A stretch of DNA of 22,196 nucleotides from a virus. The translations under genes were made by a program, and so were the position numbers. The DNA is taken from the IMG/VR virus record IMGVR_UViG_3300030393_000020, positions 1 through 22,196 of that record. One strand, written 5' to 3'. This document shows positions 992-7,813 of the stretch, in pieces; the stretch's first letter is position 1; the number at the start of each line of letters is the position of its first letter. The notes under the pieces were generated by a model. The model was not told where the DNA came from. It made no database searches and worked only from the letters and a program-made list of their open reading frames with translations.

Positions 992-1897
992 CTATTTGAG
1001 GGTTTTGAGGATCAGCGGAAAGACAGATTCGCCCGCCACATCGATCGGCTGACTGTGGTCATCGACAAAGCCCAGCCCTTCGATCCCGAAGGAAGGCGCC
1101 GCGCCGGTGACGTAAAAAGCGGTCGCCAGCCCGTCGACCTCGGCCACGATATCCATGACGCGCGGCGCCTGATGGCTCGGCACCAGAAGCGACAGGTCGA
1201 CCTTGCGGGTGGAGCCGCGCCGGACCAGGATCTCATTGCCAAAATCGTCATAGCCCTTGCGGCTGTGGCTGACGAACTGGACCCGGGGCAGGTTCAGCAC
1301 CCGGCCCAGAAGATGGTTGCGCCCGAGCACGATATGGCCGACCTCAGCCACCGCGCCGGGGGCCTCGATGGAGATGTCGACACGGTGGCCGATATAGCCG
1401 GGAAAGCCGTTGAGCACCTTCTGGCGGGCATAGATCACGCCGCCGAAGAACCAGGTATAGGCGCTGACCACATGGCCGGTGTCGACCATGGCAAAGGTCT
1501 GGTCATGGATGCGGCTGGCCCCGTCCCAGACCTCGATCCGCACGCGGCCCGCAGTCAGACCAAAGAGCGCAATGGCATCGCAATCCTGCGAGGGCACCAC
1601 CGAATAGGTGATCAGATCCGCCTGTTTCGCGGTATTGGAGCGGCGCTGATCAAAGGCCCGCCAGCGGTTGGTGGCGCTGATCTCCAGCCAGGCGCTGCCA
1701 TCGTCGGAGACCGGATCATGGCCCTGGTTGCCCTCCGCGAGGCTCTCATAGATCCGGTGCGACAGGGGCGAGATCACCCGGTCCCCCGTGCCGTAGCTGG
1801 TCGCCGCCGCCCAGACCGGGTGATCATCCTCGGCAATATTCGACGCCACCAGCTCCGCCTCGGTGACCGGCATCGGTGCGATGATATTGAAGTCCAT
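992..1897 (-). CDS. Distal tail protein with an N-terminal carbohydrate-binding-like module
   Basis: This 301-aa protein starts at an ATG that shares one base with the tape measure stop (TGATG), indicating translational coupling. Residues of about 28-75 (VWAAATSYGTGDRVI, then HRIYESLAEGN and W70) have the spaced aromatic pattern of small carbohydrate-binding modules found in phage tail proteins. They are followed by TNRWRAFDQ. This N-terminal arrangement (IAPxxVTEAxLVASNI, then GDRVI, then ATNRWRxFD) is one I recognise from siphophage tail proteins encoded just after the tape measure. The remaining 200 residues look beta-rich. The likely role is a baseplate or tail-tip component between tube and fibre. 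It could equally be annotated simply as phage tail protein; no enzymatic motif is visible. Confidence 0.72.
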   Translation of the reverse strand: MDFNIIAPMPVTEAELVASNIAEDDHPVWAAATSYGTGDRVISPLSHRIYESLAEGNQGHDPVSDDGSAWLEISATNRWRAFDQRRSNTAKQADLITYSVVPSQDCDAIALFGLTAGRVRIEVWDGASRIHDQTFAMVDTGHVVSAYTWFFGGVIYARQKVLNGFPGYIGHRVDISIEAPGAVAEVGHIVLGRNHLLGRVLNLPRVQFVSHSRKGYDDFGNEILVRRGSTRKVDLSLLVPSHQAPRVMDIVAEVDGLATAFYVTGAAPSFGIEGLGFVDDHSQPIDVAGESVFPLILKTLK

Positions 1898-4800
1898 CAG
1901 CGCCGCTCCCCCGGCAGGCCCGCCTCATCCCAATCGTCCACCGTGTTGGCGATCCGATCGAGCAGCATCCGCATCACCTGCCCCTGCGCCACCACATGGC
2001 GGCTCAGCTCCTCCACGCCCTTGGCCAGGGGGCGATTGTCCAGCATCGCCACAGACTCCGCGTGGCTGTGAATCCGCGAGGGGCCGGTGGTCTCGATCTC
2101 CCAGCCGCGCTCGCCGACAATGCGCGCACCGCCCTGATGGGCGCCGCCGCGCGCAAAGGCGGGAATGCCGCCGAGATCCCGGATCTGGGCGCGCAGGGTC
2201 TCAAGCTGATTTGCGCTGGTTCTGTAGCGCTGGTTATGAGCCCGGATCTGCGCCTCCAGCCCATCCGCCCCCCGAAAAGCCGCACGGAACCCGGCCAGAT
2301 CTGCCCCTGCCCCATAGGTCAGGTAATCCGCATCATAGATGATCCGCCCCGAGACATCCGAGACCCGCAGATCGGCATCCCGGCCCCCCGCGCGGGTCAG
2401 GCTCACGCCGGTCTGCTGCTCCAGCGCCTCGATCTGCGCCACCAGGCTCGTCGCCTCACTGCGATCCGCTACGACAGAGGCCGCCGTCTGCCCCTGCGCC
2501 TGCAGCGCCGCGATCTGGGTCTGGGCCGCACGCGCCTGGCGGTCGGCCTCCACAGCGGCGCGCAGCTCGCCGAGCATGCCGCGCAGCCGGTCCAGGGGCG
2601 CGCGCAGCCGTCCGGTCTGGCTCGCGAGATCGGCAAAGACATCATCCGCCTCCAGCACCACACCGCCGCCAAAGGTGAGCCGGCCAGTTCCACCACCAGT
2701 GCCGATCAGCCGCGACAGGCGGGTCAGCCGATCCACCGTCTCCGAGCTGTCACCGGTTAGCGCCACATTGACCTGCCGCGACAGATTGGCCGAGCGCGTC
2801 AGCACCAGCGCGCGCGTGTCCGCATCAAGATCGCGGCCCAGGTCCAGCATCAGGCTCCGGCGCAGATCCGCCGCCGTTGTCAGCGCCAGCCTGCGGCTGT
2901 CGCGGTCCAGATCCGCCCCCAGCACCAGATCCAGCGTCGAGATATGCTGCGAGAGCGCATGGGTGGCAATCCAGCGATCGGCCGGGCTCAAATCATCGCG
3001 CCGGAGGATAAAATCCAGCGTGGTGCGAATGCCGCTATCGGCCTGCTCCACCAGTTCCCGCAGCCAGCGCGGCGCGTTGTCATCCAGAGACACAGCCACA
3101 TCCAGCGCGCCCACCAGATCGTCATAGCTGAAGGCCTCGGCATTCTCGATCGCGGCCTCCAGCGCCGAGAGAGACCCCTCAAAGGCCGCCACCGTGCCAT
3201 CCCAATCCGCCGCCAGCGCCTGCACACCGTCGCTGAGATCCGCCACCTGATCCGCCGTCAGCCCCTCCAGCTGCAGGAAGTTGCCGAGCGAGGTCAGCAC
3301 CTCGATCTGGTGCTGATAGAGCCCGGCCAGCACCTCATCATTACCCGCTTCCAGATCGGCAATGCCAGCGGCCCTTGCCATCTGCGCCTGCACCTCGGCG
3401 GCAATGCGGCGATAGTCCAGCTCGGAGCCGGCGCTGTCGCGGGCGCTCTGCAGATAGGTTCGCGCCAGATCCGGCAGCGCCGCCGCCGAGGCCGCATCGC
3501 CCGCCTGAACCCCCGCAAAGGCCCTGTCCAGCCGGGCGCGCTGCACCGCCGCCGCCTGATCGCTGCTGGCCGCCCTCAGATCGGTATTGACCAGATCCGC
3601 CACAAAGCCGCGCAGACTGTCCGCCGTGCGCCGCCACTCCTCTGCGGCGGTGCGGGCCTCGCTGATCATGTCGCGGGCGGTGTCAATCTGGGTGCCGATC
3701 TCGCCGCCGACCTCCTGCGCAATCCCCGCCAGCTCCGCCGTGAAGGCGCTGACCTCGGGCAGCACCTCATCCAAGGCGCCCGACAGCTGCAGCAATTGCG
3801 CATAAAGCGCCTGCCCGCCCTCGGTGGTCAGATCGAGACTGTCGACGATCTCGCGGAAGCCATCGCGCGAGGCGGGCATGGCAATGCCGAGGCTCTCGAA
3901 CTCTTCGCGCAGGCGGCGCAAGATCACCTCGCTCTGTTCTGACTCTGAGTAAAAACCGGAGACATAGCCCGTGACCGCCGCCGACATCTGATCGGCGCCC
4001 CCGAAGGCCGCCACCAGATCCGAGGCCAGATCCGCCCCGGCCAGCGACACATCAAAGGCGGTGCGGCCCAGCAGATCCATGGCGTCATTCACCGTGACCA
4101 GGCTCCCCGACAGCCGCGCCAGCGTCTCCGAGGCCGTCTCGCCCGCGCGGCTGAAGGCCTCGGTGCCGAGGATCAGATCCGCCATCTGCTCCTGGGCGGC
4201 GGCCATGTGATCCGCGATATCCTGCTGGATTTGCTCTTGCGTCCGCCCCGAGGTCATCACCGAGAGATGATAGCCCTCGAACTCCGCCAGCGCATCCGCG
4301 CCAAGCCCCAGCGCCTCGGCCATCGACAAAAGCCCGGTGGTGACACCGCTGACCTGCTGATCCAGCGCCGCATCCAGATCGCCGTCCAGGGCGCCCTGGA
4401 TATCGCGGTCGCTGCGGAACCAGCCGCCGCGATAATGGTCGCGGGTGTAGCCGTCAAAGCCCGCCGCCCCCACCGTGCCCTCCAGCGCCGAGAAGTCAAA
4501 GCTGCGCCCGAAGGCTTTCTTCAGAAGCGCGGCACCGCCAAACACAATGCCAAGCGCCGGGATTGCCGCGCCGATCGCGCCAAGCCCGCCCGACGCCCCG
4601 GACAAAAGCCCGCCGAGATTGGCAAAGCTCGACCCCAGCCCGCCGCCCGACAGCACGCCGCCAAGACCAGATCCCAGACCGCCGAGAATGCCACCGCCGC
4701 CCAGAAGGCCACTGGCGCCCTGCCCCAGCAGTCCTGTCAAAAGACCGCCACCGCCGGAGATCACCCCGCCCGCCGCATTCGCTGCAGTGCCCGCACCGCC

Positions 4801-6681
4801 GAGCGACAGCCCCAGGGCGATCTGTATTTTATTTTTGGCAAACTGCGCCGCGAGATCCGCAAGCCCCCGCGTGGCAGCCTCCTTGAGGCCGTCCCACAGG
4901 TCGCGGAAGTCGCGCAGGCCGCCCGCGACCCAATCGCCAAAGCTCCGCGAGACGCCATCCACCGCCGTCGACAGCGGCCCGCTCATTTCTTGCGAGAGAT
5001 CCCCTGCCGCCTCGCGTGTCTTCGACAAGCCCCCTGCCACGCCGCCGCCGGAGCCGTCATCCAGCACCTGCCCCAGCTCGCCGAGTTTCTCCTTCAGCGC
5101 ATCCGCGCTGTCATCGCCCGCATCCAGTTCCGCATTGGCCGAATCCATCTGCAGGGTCAGGGTCTTCAGGGCTTCAGTTGCCTTGCCCCAGCCCTGTTTT
5201 GCCAGCGCCGCCGCCGTCTTGCGCGCCGCCTCGGCCGCCTCCTGATGGGCGGCGACCTTCACAGTCAACCCATGCACCGCGCTGGCCGCCTCCACCGCAT
5301 AGCCATGCAGCGACAGCGCCAGCCCGTCCTGCCCCGCCGCCCGCGCGCCCTCGGTCATCCGATGCAGGAACCCGGCCCAGGTCGCCTGCACCCCGGAGAT
5401 CATGGAGACAAACCCGGCCTGCACCCCGGCCCAGACCGCCTGCAGGGCGGGCTTGATCGCCTGCGCCCCGGTGGTGATCCCCTCCCAGACCCCTTTGGCA
5501 AGATCGCCGAGCGCCTGCAGCGCCGCGCCCCAGCCGCCGGTGGCCACAACCAGATCGTGGAACTTCATCGCCAGATAGCCCGCCCCCACCACCAGCGCGC
5601 CGATGCCGGTGGCAATCACCGCGCCGCGCAGCAGCACAAGCCCCCGCTGCAGGCCTTTCATGGCAACCCCTGCAATCGCCGCCTTGGCAGAGGTCGCCCC
5701 CAGCGCCAGCTCCAGCGCCACGGCGGATTTGGCCGCCGCCGCAAAGCGCAGCGGTGCCAGCGCCACCGTGGAGATCAACCCACCCATGCCGAGCGCCAGT
5801 GGCGTCGCCACCTTCAGCACCAGCCCCAGCGCCAGCGCCGCAGGCCCCAGCGTGCCCACCAGCAGCGCGCCAGTCGCCACCACCTGCTTGGTCCCATCGG
5901 ACAGGTCATTGAACCAGGTCGAGACATCCGCCACCCGGTCGCTCAGCCCCTGCAGCGCGGGCGCCAGCGCCACCGTCACCTGATTGGCCAGCCCCCGGCC
6001 CGCCAGGCCCATCCGCGACAGCGCGTCATTGGTCAGCTCGATCTGATCGGCCTCAACCTCGGAGACCGCGACGCCAAAGCGGCTCACATCCGCCGCCGCC
6101 ACCCGCAGCGCCGCGCCGTCAATGCGGGTGAAGATCAGCCCCGCCCGGCTGCCAAACAGCTCCGAGGCCACCGCCGCGCGCTCCGCCTCCGGCACATACG
6201 CCGCCAGCGCGCTCTGGATCTCGTCCAGCCGCTGATCCAGCGGCAGCGCCTGCAGCTCCGACGCCGACAGATGCAGCCGGTCCAGCGCCTTGGCCGCCGC
6301 GCCGGTGCCGCCCGCCGCCTGGCTCAGGCGTTTGGTCAGCTGGATCGTCGCCTGCTGCACCTCGCCCATGGCAACGCCCGACAGATCCGCTGCCCGCTCC
6401 AGCACCTGCATCGAGGCCACGGTGGTGCCCAGCGACTGCGCCATCTTGGCCTGGGCATCGACGATCCGCAGGCTGGAGCGCACGGCCACCGTTGCCGCCC
6501 CCGCCATCGGCAGGGTGAGGCCAAGCGCCATGCGCCGCCCGGCCCCCTCCATTTTACCCGCCAGTGCCACCATGCGGCGCTCGACAGTGCCCATGGTCGC
6601 CTGCGCCCGCTTCGCGCCCGTCTCGAAGGCGGCGGAGTCCATCGAAAGCACGCCGCGCAGCGCGCCAATAACTGCGGACAT
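1897..6681 (-). CDS. Tail tape measure protein
   Basis: At 1594 aa this is by far the longest gene in the window. It sits directly after the tail chaperone pair, the standard siphovirus position. The N-terminal 250 residues are helical (VERRMVALAGKMEGAGRRMA onward). Hydrophobic stretches at about residues 265-310 and 345-375 could span membranes during DNA ejection. A very Gly-rich hydrophobic segment occupies about residues 625-710. Residues 1193-1303 hold four degenerate 27-29-aa repeats. Near the C-terminus ARGGAHQGGARIVGERGWEIE matches the GERGxE motif common at tape measure ends. If it follows the usual rule of about 1.5 angstrom per residue, the tail would be near 240 nm. The protein fills the tail, sets its length and is ejected ahead of DNA. 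AAGGGGG precedes the ATG by five bases. No cell-wall hydrolase motif was recognised. Confidence 0.93.
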   Translation of the reverse strand: MSAVIGALRGVLSMDSAAFETGAKRAQATMGTVERRMVALAGKMEGAGRRMALGLTLPMAGAATVAVRSSLRIVDAQAKMAQSLGTTVASMQVLERAADLSGVAMGEVQQATIQLTKRLSQAAGGTGAAAKALDRLHLSASELQALPLDQRLDEIQSALAAYVPEAERAAVASELFGSRAGLIFTRIDGAALRVAAADVSRFGVAVSEVEADQIELTNDALSRMGLAGRGLANQVTVALAPALQGLSDRVADVSTWFNDLSDGTKQVVATGALLVGTLGPAALALGLVLKVATPLALGMGGLISTVALAPLRFAAAAKSAVALELALGATSAKAAIAGVAMKGLQRGLVLLRGAVIATGIGALVVGAGYLAMKFHDLVVATGGWGAALQALGDLAKGVWEGITTGAQAIKPALQAVWAGVQAGFVSMISGVQATWAGFLHRMTEGARAAGQDGLALSLHGYAVEAASAVHGLTVKVAAHQEAAEAARKTAAALAKQGWGKATEALKTLTLQMDSANAELDAGDDSADALKEKLGELGQVLDDGSGGGVAGGLSKTREAAGDLSQEMSGPLSTAVDGVSRSFGDWVAGGLRDFRDLWDGLKEAATRGLADLAAQFAKNKIQIALGLSLGGAGTAANAAGGVISGGGGLLTGLLGQGASGLLGGGGILGGLGSGLGGVLSGGGLGSSFANLGGLLSGASGGLGAIGAAIPALGIVFGGAALLKKAFGRSFDFSALEGTVGAAGFDGYTRDHYRGGWFRSDRDIQGALDGDLDAALDQQVSGVTTGLLSMAEALGLGADALAEFEGYHLSVMTSGRTQEQIQQDIADHMAAAQEQMADLILGTEAFSRAGETASETLARLSGSLVTVNDAMDLLGRTAFDVSLAGADLASDLVAAFGGADQMSAAVTGYVSGFYSESEQSEVILRRLREEFESLGIAMPASRDGFREIVDSLDLTTEGGQALYAQLLQLSGALDEVLPEVSAFTAELAGIAQEVGGEIGTQIDTARDMISEARTAAEEWRRTADSLRGFVADLVNTDLRAASSDQAAAVQRARLDRAFAGVQAGDAASAAALPDLARTYLQSARDSAGSELDYRRIAAEVQAQMARAAGIADLEAGNDEVLAGLYQHQIEVLTSLGNFLQLEGLTADQVADLSDGVQALAADWDGTVAAFEGSLSALEAAIENAEAFSYDDLVGALDVAVSLDDNAPRWLRELVEQADSGIRTTLDFILRRDDLSPADRWIATHALSQHISTLDLVLGADLDRDSRRLALTTAADLRRSLMLDLGRDLDADTRALVLTRSANLSRQVNVALTGDSSETVDRLTRLSRLIGTGGGTGRLTFGGGVVLEADDVFADLASQTGRLRAPLDRLRGMLGELRAAVEADRQARAAQTQIAALQAQGQTAASVVADRSEATSLVAQIEALEQQTGVSLTRAGGRDADLRVSDVSGRIIYDADYLTYGAGADLAGFRAAFRGADGLEAQIRAHNQRYRTSANQLETLRAQIRDLGGIPAFARGGAHQGGARIVGERGWEIETTGPSRIHSHAESVAMLDNRPLAKGVEELSRHVVAQGQVMRMLLDRIANTVDDWDEAGLPGERR
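2773..3105 (-). repeat. Four degenerate 27-29-aa tandem repeats in the tape measure protein
   Basis: Four consecutive units start with LDVAVSLDD (residue 1193), LDFILRRDDL (1222), LDLVLGADLD (1250) and LMLDLGRDLD (1277). Each has a hydrophobic strand-like start, an acidic DLD/DDL turn and a helical second half (for example RDSRRLALTTAADLRRS). A truncated fifth start, VNVALTGD, follows. The last two units are clearly alike and the first two are more divergent. The period is far longer than the 11-residue helical period usual in tape measure rods. Confidence 0.6.
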
Positions 6682-6990
6682 CTATGCCCCCTTTTTGCTT
6701 TTGAAGTGCAGACCCATCAGACTCGCGCGCAGCTGTTCCACATCCTGCGTCGCATCAGCCTTGGTGCTGCGGCCCTTGCGGCCCGCCGCCCTGGTAAAAT
6801 CCGGCATTGATTTGGGGCTGTGGAAGGCGTGGCTGACCAGCACGCCCAGTTCCTGATTGAGCACCCGGCGCGCGTCGATCTCGGCGTCCTTGGACCGGAT
6901 CCTTGCGCGGGTGATCAGGTCATATTCCCGCAAGGTCACGCCGGGGAAATCGGCGTGGTGCTGGCCCAATTCGCACCACGCCGCCATCAA
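6682..6990 (-). CDS. Tail assembly chaperone, T-part, reached by -1 frameshift from the G-part
   Basis: This 102-aa frame lies between the G-like chaperone gene and the tape measure, where lambda has its GT frame. It could only start independently at TTG 6990 or ATG 6987, and neither has a Shine-Dalgarno sequence. The frame is open further upstream and is exactly the -1 frame of the preceding gene, joining it at the slippery heptamer at 7026-7032. A frameshift there would add 114 residues to K115 of the G-part and give a 229-aa fusion. The junction-proximal sequence (VDWPGLMAAWCELGQHHADF, then PGVTLREYDLI) resembles the small tail assembly chaperone of Rhodobacterales gene transfer agents. 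The fusion would bind the tape measure during tail assembly and be absent from virions. It may be annotated elsewhere as an independent hypothetical protein. Confidence 0.7.
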   Translation of the reverse strand: MMAAWCELGQHHADFPGVTLREYDLITRARIRSKDAEIDARRVLNQELGVLVSHAFHSPKSMPDFTRAAGRKGRSTKADATQDVEQLRASLMGLHFKSKKGA

Positions 6991-7001
6991 TCCCGGCCAG
7001 T

Positions 7002-7370
7002 CTACGCCCCCGCCGGGGGGCGCGCCTTTCCCGGTTCTGCGGCCTCACCGGATTCCGTGCCCGTTTCCGTTTTGGGCGCGGGGAAGGCTTTGCCGATCGC
7101 CTCGGCCACAAAGGGCACCACCTTGCGCGCGCCGCCCGCGGCGTCGACCATCTCCATGGCCTCCTCTTTGGACACGCCGCTGCCATCCCCGAGACCCGCC
7201 GCCAGCGCCGAGACCAGAAGCTTGATCCCGCCGGTGCCCTGGATCAGCCGGTCCAGCAGGCTATCGAAAGGCGCATTGCCATTGTCCTCTTCGAACCGCA
7301 TCAGCGCGCCCGTGGTCAGACGCAGTTTATGGGTCACCTTGCCCAGCTTCAGAGTTGCGGCCGGGATCAT
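7002..7370 (-). CDS. Tail assembly chaperone, G-part (GTA gp10-like)
   Basis: The 122-aa product starts at an ATG overlapping the tail tube stop by four bases (ATGA). Its beta-rich N-terminus (ATLKLGKVTHKLRLTTGALMRFEEDNG) resembles small proteins found after the tail tube gene in Rhodobacterales gene transfer agents and siphophages. The C-terminus is disordered and rich in Pro, Glu and Gly. The GGA AAG codons for G114 and K115 form part of a G GGA AAG heptamer, seven codons before the stop. By analogy with lambda G, most ribosomes would end here and a minority would shift to make the GT fusion. Function is inferred from position, frameshift signal and family resemblance. Confidence 0.75.
   Translation of the reverse strand: MIPAATLKLGKVTHKLRLTTGALMRFEEDNGNAPFDSLLDRLIQGTGGIKLLVSALAAGLGDGSGVSKEEAMEMVDAAGGARKVVPFVAEAIGKAFPAPKTETGTESGEAAEPGKARPPAGA
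7005..7022 (-). other. GC hairpin just downstream of the frameshift site
   Basis: The minus strand reads CGCCCCC, loop CGGC, GGGGGCG: a perfect 7-bp all-GC stem three bases after the slippery heptamer and directly before the zero-frame TAG. It is a plausible frameshift stimulator. The spacer is shorter than the usual 5-9 bases, although the outer pairs may open as the ribosome reaches the site. Confidence 0.6.
7026..7032 (-). promoter_or_regulatory. -1 ribosomal frameshift slippery heptamer GGGAAAG
   Basis: On the minus strand the zero-frame codons read CCG GGA AAG, so the heptamer is correctly phased as G GGA AAG. Phage lambda uses the same heptamer for gpG/gpGT. Three bases downstream a 7-bp GC hairpin begins. 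The -1 frame is open from here to the stop at 6682. Confidence 0.8.
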
Positions 7371-7813
7371 GCTGCGGCCCCTTCCGTCCAGTCAATGAGC
7401 CCGGTCGGGCGCAGTTTGAGATCCGTCATCAGGTCGCCATCCACATCCGTCGAGGGCATCGAGGGGTTGACGAAGGCCTTGAACCGGAAGGTATCGCCCG
7501 TCGACTGCCCCGGCCCCGCGGGCAGGGTGACCCGAAAGAACACCGGCTGGCGCGACGCCCTGTAGGCCGCCGCCTGCTTGTACAAAGCGGTCGAGTAAAA
7601 ACAGCTCAGCGTCACCTCGCCGGTGTCCGTCATCCCCACGCCCCATTCGCGCGCGCGCCCCGGACTGTCCAGCGAGGTCCGGTCGCGGTATTCCGGGTTT
7701 TCCTCCGGGATGCCCACGGTCTTGCAGCCCGTGATGGCGGCAAAACTGTCCTCCACATCCTCGGCGGACCATTCGATCTCCACCAGATCGCCTGCAATGA
7801 CATTCTCTGCCAT
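7367..7813 (-). CDS. Major tail tube protein
   Basis: The 148-aa product lies between the DUF3168-like tail terminator and the chaperone pair, the conserved place of the tail tube gene in HK97- and GTA-like modules. The N-terminus (VIAGDLVEIEWSAEDVEDSFAAI) and the mid-region (YRDRTSLDSPGRAREWGVG) fit phage tail tube proteins, as does the alternating hydrophobic beta pattern with a C-terminal FRFKAFVNPSMP...VDGDLMTDLKLRPTG section. It would polymerise around the tape measure to form the tube. AAGGA lies seven bases before the ATG. The gene overlaps the next start by four bases. A GC hairpin lies in its leader. Confidence 0.82.
   Translation of the reverse strand: MAENVIAGDLVEIEWSAEDVEDSFAAITGCKTVGIPEENPEYRDRTSLDSPGRAREWGVGMTDTGEVTLSCFYSTALYKQAAAYRASRQPVFFRVTLPAGPGQSTGDTFRFKAFVNPSMPSTDVDGDLMTDLKLRPTGLIDWTEGAAA

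Follow-up and report, generated by a model that had tools for sequence, protein, structure and literature searches.

A predicted programmed −1 ribosomal frameshift of the lambda G/GT type in the tail chaperone genes of a siphovirus-type prophage

How does a tail module produce protein from a long reading frame that lies directly before the tape measure gene and overlaps the end of another gene in a different phase? We examined this for a 22,196-nt stretch of viral DNA (IMG/VR virus record IMGVR_UViG_3300030393_000020, positions 1 to 22,196; hereafter the window). The window is a prophage carrying genes for an integrase, the small and large terminase subunits, a portal, an S49 protease, a major head protein, head–tail connectors, a tail terminator, a major tail protein, the chaperone pair considered here and a tape measure protein. 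A preliminary description of the DNA had placed a chaperone pair before the tape measure gene, and the order of major tail protein, PF11836 chaperone, second frame (frame 2) and tape measure is confirmed (Table 1). We conclude with high confidence that this siphovirus-type prophage expresses the pair by programmed −1 ribosomal frameshifting. The carrier appears to be a prophage of a marine Roseobacter-type bacterium, and the longer product appears to be missed by standard gene calling.

Table 1 Features of the chaperone locus in window coordinates
Feature	Position	Strand	Evidence or remark
Major tail protein gene	7367..7813	−	phrog_158, E 2.9e-12; upstream neighbour, stop overlaps TAC1 ATG
TAC1, zero-frame tail assembly chaperone ORF, 122 aa	7002..7370	−	PF11836; phrog_2115 tail protein
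TGA closing the −1 frame upstream	7045..7047	−	Sequence
Slip heptamer G GGA AAG	7026..7032	−	Sequence and phase; identical in all 9 distinct close copies
GC inverted repeat of 7 bp, tentative stimulator with weak support	7005..7022	−	CGCCCCC-CGGC-GGGGGCG
TAC2, −1 part of the predicted fusion, 115 residues and stop	6682..7029	−	Open frame; kept in relatives; GTA g10.1/PF09550 profile match
Tape measure protein gene	1897..6681	−	phrog_8462, E 7e-85; begins directly after TAC2 stop

The zero-frame open reading frame (ORF) runs on the minus strand from the ATG at 7370 to the TAG at 7004–7002 and encodes the 122 aa of TAC1. Within it, the heptamer GGGAAAG at 7032–7026 had been read as phased G GGA AAG; sequence and phase are both as described, GGA and AAG being zero-frame codons 114 and 115. 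Upstream of the heptamer, a TGA at 7047–7045 closes the −1 frame, so that frame 2 has to be entered between 7044 and 7002. From there it is uninterrupted to the TAG at 6684–6682 and comprises 115 residues counted from the shifted AAA codon; the proposal that the −1 frame stays open to 6682 and yields a 229-aa fusion thus holds, as 114 + 115 aa. The shift-spanning peptide region of the predicted fusion is EPG-KGAPPGGGVDWPGLM. Across 3878 codon positions in nine window genes, a heptamer of the form GGGAAA[GC] or AAAAAA[GC] occurs in phase exactly once, at 7032–7026. It makes use of GGA, the rarest glycine codon in the window genes counted (9/394). When the overlap was recoded synonymously, such a heptamer arose with a probability p of about 0.01 in the window taken by itself and with p between about 0.001 and 0.03 for other loci, values that are mutually non-independent among close loci and largely independent among distant ones.

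According to the proposed mechanism, most ribosomes would terminate at the stop at 7004–7002 and release TAC1, and a minority would slip back by one base on G GGA AAG, their tRNAs re-pairing on GGG AAA. The shifted ribosomes would continue in the −1 frame and make the 229-aa TAC1–TAC2 fusion, presumably at low frequency. By analogy with lambda gpG and gpGT, both products would attach to the tape measure protein and bring in subunits of the tail tube. What the analysis establishes directly is the sequence of the heptamer, its phase, the conservation of the frame relation together with the heptamer, and the lack of a conserved start in frame 2; the occurrence of the shift, its efficiency and the chaperone role are inferred. 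Judged from sequence, this is a lambda G/GT-type frameshift, real, conserved and ordinary in kind, and the kind is well known.

The likeness to phage lambda G/GT extends to the heptamer G GGA AAG, to a −1 shift late in frame 1 and to the position just before the tape measure gene. The window pair differs from G/GT in that TAC1 is a PF11836 protein (GTA-gp10 type), a PF09550-like segment opens frame 2, and a GC hairpin, of putative role, follows only 3 nt after the heptamer. In 2004 Xu, Hendrix and Duda reportedly described a frameshift conserved among the tail genes of dsDNA phages; with the loci described here, a well-supported group of prophages from Alphaproteobacteria joins this conserved tail-chaperone frameshift. 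G_GGA_AAG is highly shift-prone in Escherichia coli, and the g–t genes of tailed haloarchaeal viruses use G_GGA_AAG, G_GGA_AAC and A_AAA_AAC (PMC5009743).

Assignment to protein families is firm for the zero frame: TAC1 matches PF11836 (Phage_TAC_11/GTA-gp10) with E 9.1e-10 and 38.9 bits, against a curated cutoff of 27.8. The window's frame 2 searched alone gave no Pfam match (PF09550 included) and no PHROG match. Among the 15 members of the frame-2 family alignment, 13 matched the unannotated family phrog_2066 (best E 4.8e-12, with matches admitted up to E 1) and 6 matched PF09550 (best E 1.4e-5). In a profile comparison with hhalign, a 34-residue stretch of frame 2 aligned with the PF09550 gene transfer agent (GTA) chaperone (probability 96.4%, E 1.2e-9); by this comparison frame 2 is a remote homologue of PF09550 that is not filed as a Pfam member. 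The chaperone pair suggests a role for the unannotated phage families phrog_2066 and phrog_19318. An 867-aa open frame on the plus strand (window 4207–6810), antisense to the tape measure gene, is most likely a spurious frame due to high G+C content.

Homologous pairs were drawn from 397 family, 18 genus and 385 class genomes, and from viral contigs, genome contigs and phage and plasmid records. In all 20 loci tabulated together, frame 2 stands in the −1 relation and the overlap contains an in-phase XXXYYYZ heptamer. One further locus (L060) adds an in-phase GGGAAAA, and plasmid pP66_i of Phaeobacter inhibens P66 (L080) adds GGGAAAC, with the −1 frame opening exactly at GGG AAA. After identical copies had been dropped, the total was 21 distinct loci, with GGGAAAG in nine, GGGAAAC in nine, and GGGAAAA, AAAAAAG (L009) and AAAAAAC (L011) in one each. 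GGGAAAG typifies the close group and GGGAAAC the majority of the distant loci, and frame-2 identity to the window falls as low as about 27% among loci that keep the slip site. Loss of the heptamer with both frames kept, which would speak against the frameshift, was not seen in the 9 distinct close copies (68–100% frame-2 identity), all of which have GGGAAAG in phase; a check for heptamer and phase beyond this group found an in-phase XXXYYYZ in 12 more distant loci as well. In the close group GGGAAAGGC is unchanged, whereas the bases upstream of it vary, and the C-terminal tail of TAC1 is barely alignable apart from the persisting slip core.

This pattern bears on two other ways of producing a frame change. 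Frame 2 could simply continue frame 1 after decay or a sequencing error, since a single-base indel or a pseudogene would give a frame break within an apparently single protein. Against this, 21 distinct loci spread over many genera share one and the same −1 relation, and the protein is conserved on both sides of the break; conservation already refutes this explanation, and we give it a negligible probability. The frame change could instead arise by transcriptional slippage, and in L009 and L011 the A runs around AAAAAAG and AAAAAAC make slippage of RNA polymerase conceivable. The window and most relatives, however, have only GGGAAA, which to our knowledge contains no run long enough for the polymerase to slip, and all 20 tabulated loci obey the XXXYYYZ phase, a rule of consequence to tRNAs alone; this explanation, too, is exceedingly improbable.

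No clear canonical slip site was found in three remote relatives with a recognisable frame 2, namely L062 (Agrobacterium phage Rivra), L064 and L081 (an unannotated faecal phage), which show 35–46% identity over part of the protein; these may use a non-canonical slip site or another mode of expression. Several candidates were set aside. The class-level phrog_2066 matches L073–L075 proved on translation to be unrelated long proteins, L076–L078 are similar phrog_2066 matches with equally long frames, and L012, L061 and L063 were unreadable as a chaperone pair.

The remaining question is whether frame 2 could be started independently. The first conserved motif of frame 2 is DW in most of the 20 tabulated loci. 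Over the 45 nt leading up to this motif, not one of the 20 has a frame-2 ATG, GTG or TTG, and 12 stay free of such codons when the stretch is extended to 60 nt past it. The window's frame 2 does contain a TTG at 6990 and an ATG at 6987, 12–15 nt past the D codon overlapping the TAC1 stop, and these codons would allow frame 2 to be a separate gene translated by termination–reinitiation after that stop, like g10/g10.1 of GTAs, a homologous pair that uses overlapping or adjacent starts. Neither codon is conserved, however, and a product started there would lack the conserved VDW motif. A search for a well-spaced Shine–Dalgarno sequence for either codon found none; TAC1 and the tape measure gene both have good ones. 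Independent initiation would moreover leave the conserved heptamer and the constant −1 relation unexplained, and we regard it as very unlikely. The earlier statement that frame 2 lacks a Shine–Dalgarno sequence of its own is upheld as regards a well-spaced one, with the amendment that start codons do exist in the window.

Public annotation treats frame 2 as a separate protein from an internal GTG in two homologous pairs with the same −1 geometry, and thereby loses the conserved beginning of frame 2. These are RS22975/RS22970 of P. inhibens pP66_i, with the heptamer GGGAAAC, and genes 12/13 of Agrobacterium phage Rivra, without a canonical heptamer. In pP66_i, the first start codon of the −1 frame falls 3′ of the DW motif. 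About 24 conserved residues are dropped by the internal-GTG annotation (L080, NZ_CP010714.1 18076–18396; L062, PV764937.1 8591–8803). The plasmid pP66_i carries this phage head–tail module and is probably a phage-plasmid.

The GTAs of Rhodobacterales provide a comparison with a pair that seems to have separate starts. Their g10/g10.1 genes (also g10.5) resemble the window pair in that frame 1 is PF11836, frame 2 is PF09550-like over 34 residues and the gene order is the same; the RcGTA genes have been called tail chaperones 1 and 2 (PMC11409702). PF09550 was matched in 76 of 101 family genomes, and we read the best 30 of the 76 (L024–L053), which are putatively assigned to GTAs from their family and from the conserved tail of the upstream gene. 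In all of these best 30 loci, a start codon lies at most 42 nt before an FDW motif, at −6 to −12 in 28. Of the 29 loci in which the relative frame of the upstream gene was readable, 18 show one frame and 11 the other. An in-phase XXXYYYZ was found among the 30 loci read only in L037 (GGGGGGC). The GTA pair thus differs from the window pair in having a conserved start before FDW, two relative frames and no slip site except this one GGGGGGC; it has the appearance of two separately started ORFs, and the prophage pair that of a fusion made by frameshifting. In the genome that carries the window, PF09550 is not matched at all and PF11836 only once, by the prophage copy.

Of the phages of Rhodobacter capsulatus, most have been described with the usual chaperone frameshift and RcZahn with none (PMC8601537). 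In the literature searched, which excludes subscription papers, we found no paper stating the contrast between GTA and phage. That Rhodobacterales hold one homologous pair with an obligatory −1 frameshift in prophages and two separately started ORFs in chromosomal GTAs is a proposition to which we would give even odds. If it is true, the domesticated GTA would have given up frameshift control of chaperone stoichiometry, or would never have acquired it. The homologous GTA genes are a natural comparison for why phages keep the frameshift.

Downstream of the slip site, the preliminary description had also pointed to a GC hairpin at 7005–7022, sitting on the zero-frame stop. The 7-bp inverted repeat is indeed present and begins three bases past the heptamer; it abuts the stop and reaches the T of the TAG only if an eighth, G·U pair is counted. 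The stem alone has a predicted energy of −14.5 kcal/mol, but the emphasis on the hairpin as a conserved element is not supported. The region folds no better than shuffled sequences (z = −0.30), a competing alternative fold exists, and the hairpin is sometimes absent from the minimum-energy fold. Over nine distinct sequences, 87% of cells are paired and no pair shows a two-sided change, so that covariation gives no support to a conserved stimulator; L003 and L017 break inner stem pairs. The 3′ arm is invariant, but the stretch codes in two frames and is already constrained by this. Mild support comes from L023, in which a 12-nt insertion falls in the loop and most of the stem is retained. The distant loci L008, L014 and L011 have strong stem–loops directly after the slip site that span the zero-frame stop (z about −4 to −7 with mononucleotide shuffles). 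A stimulator may exist, though not as a conserved defining element, and as evidence the hairpin ranks far below the heptamer.

The hairpin arm also contains another heptamer that is in phase, C CCC CCG (window 7014–7020), 9 nt 5′ of the stop. We rejected it as a second slip site: it belongs to the hairpin arm and is missing from L003 and L017. It occurs in seven of the nine distinct close copies, and in L023 it lies 21 nt before the stop.
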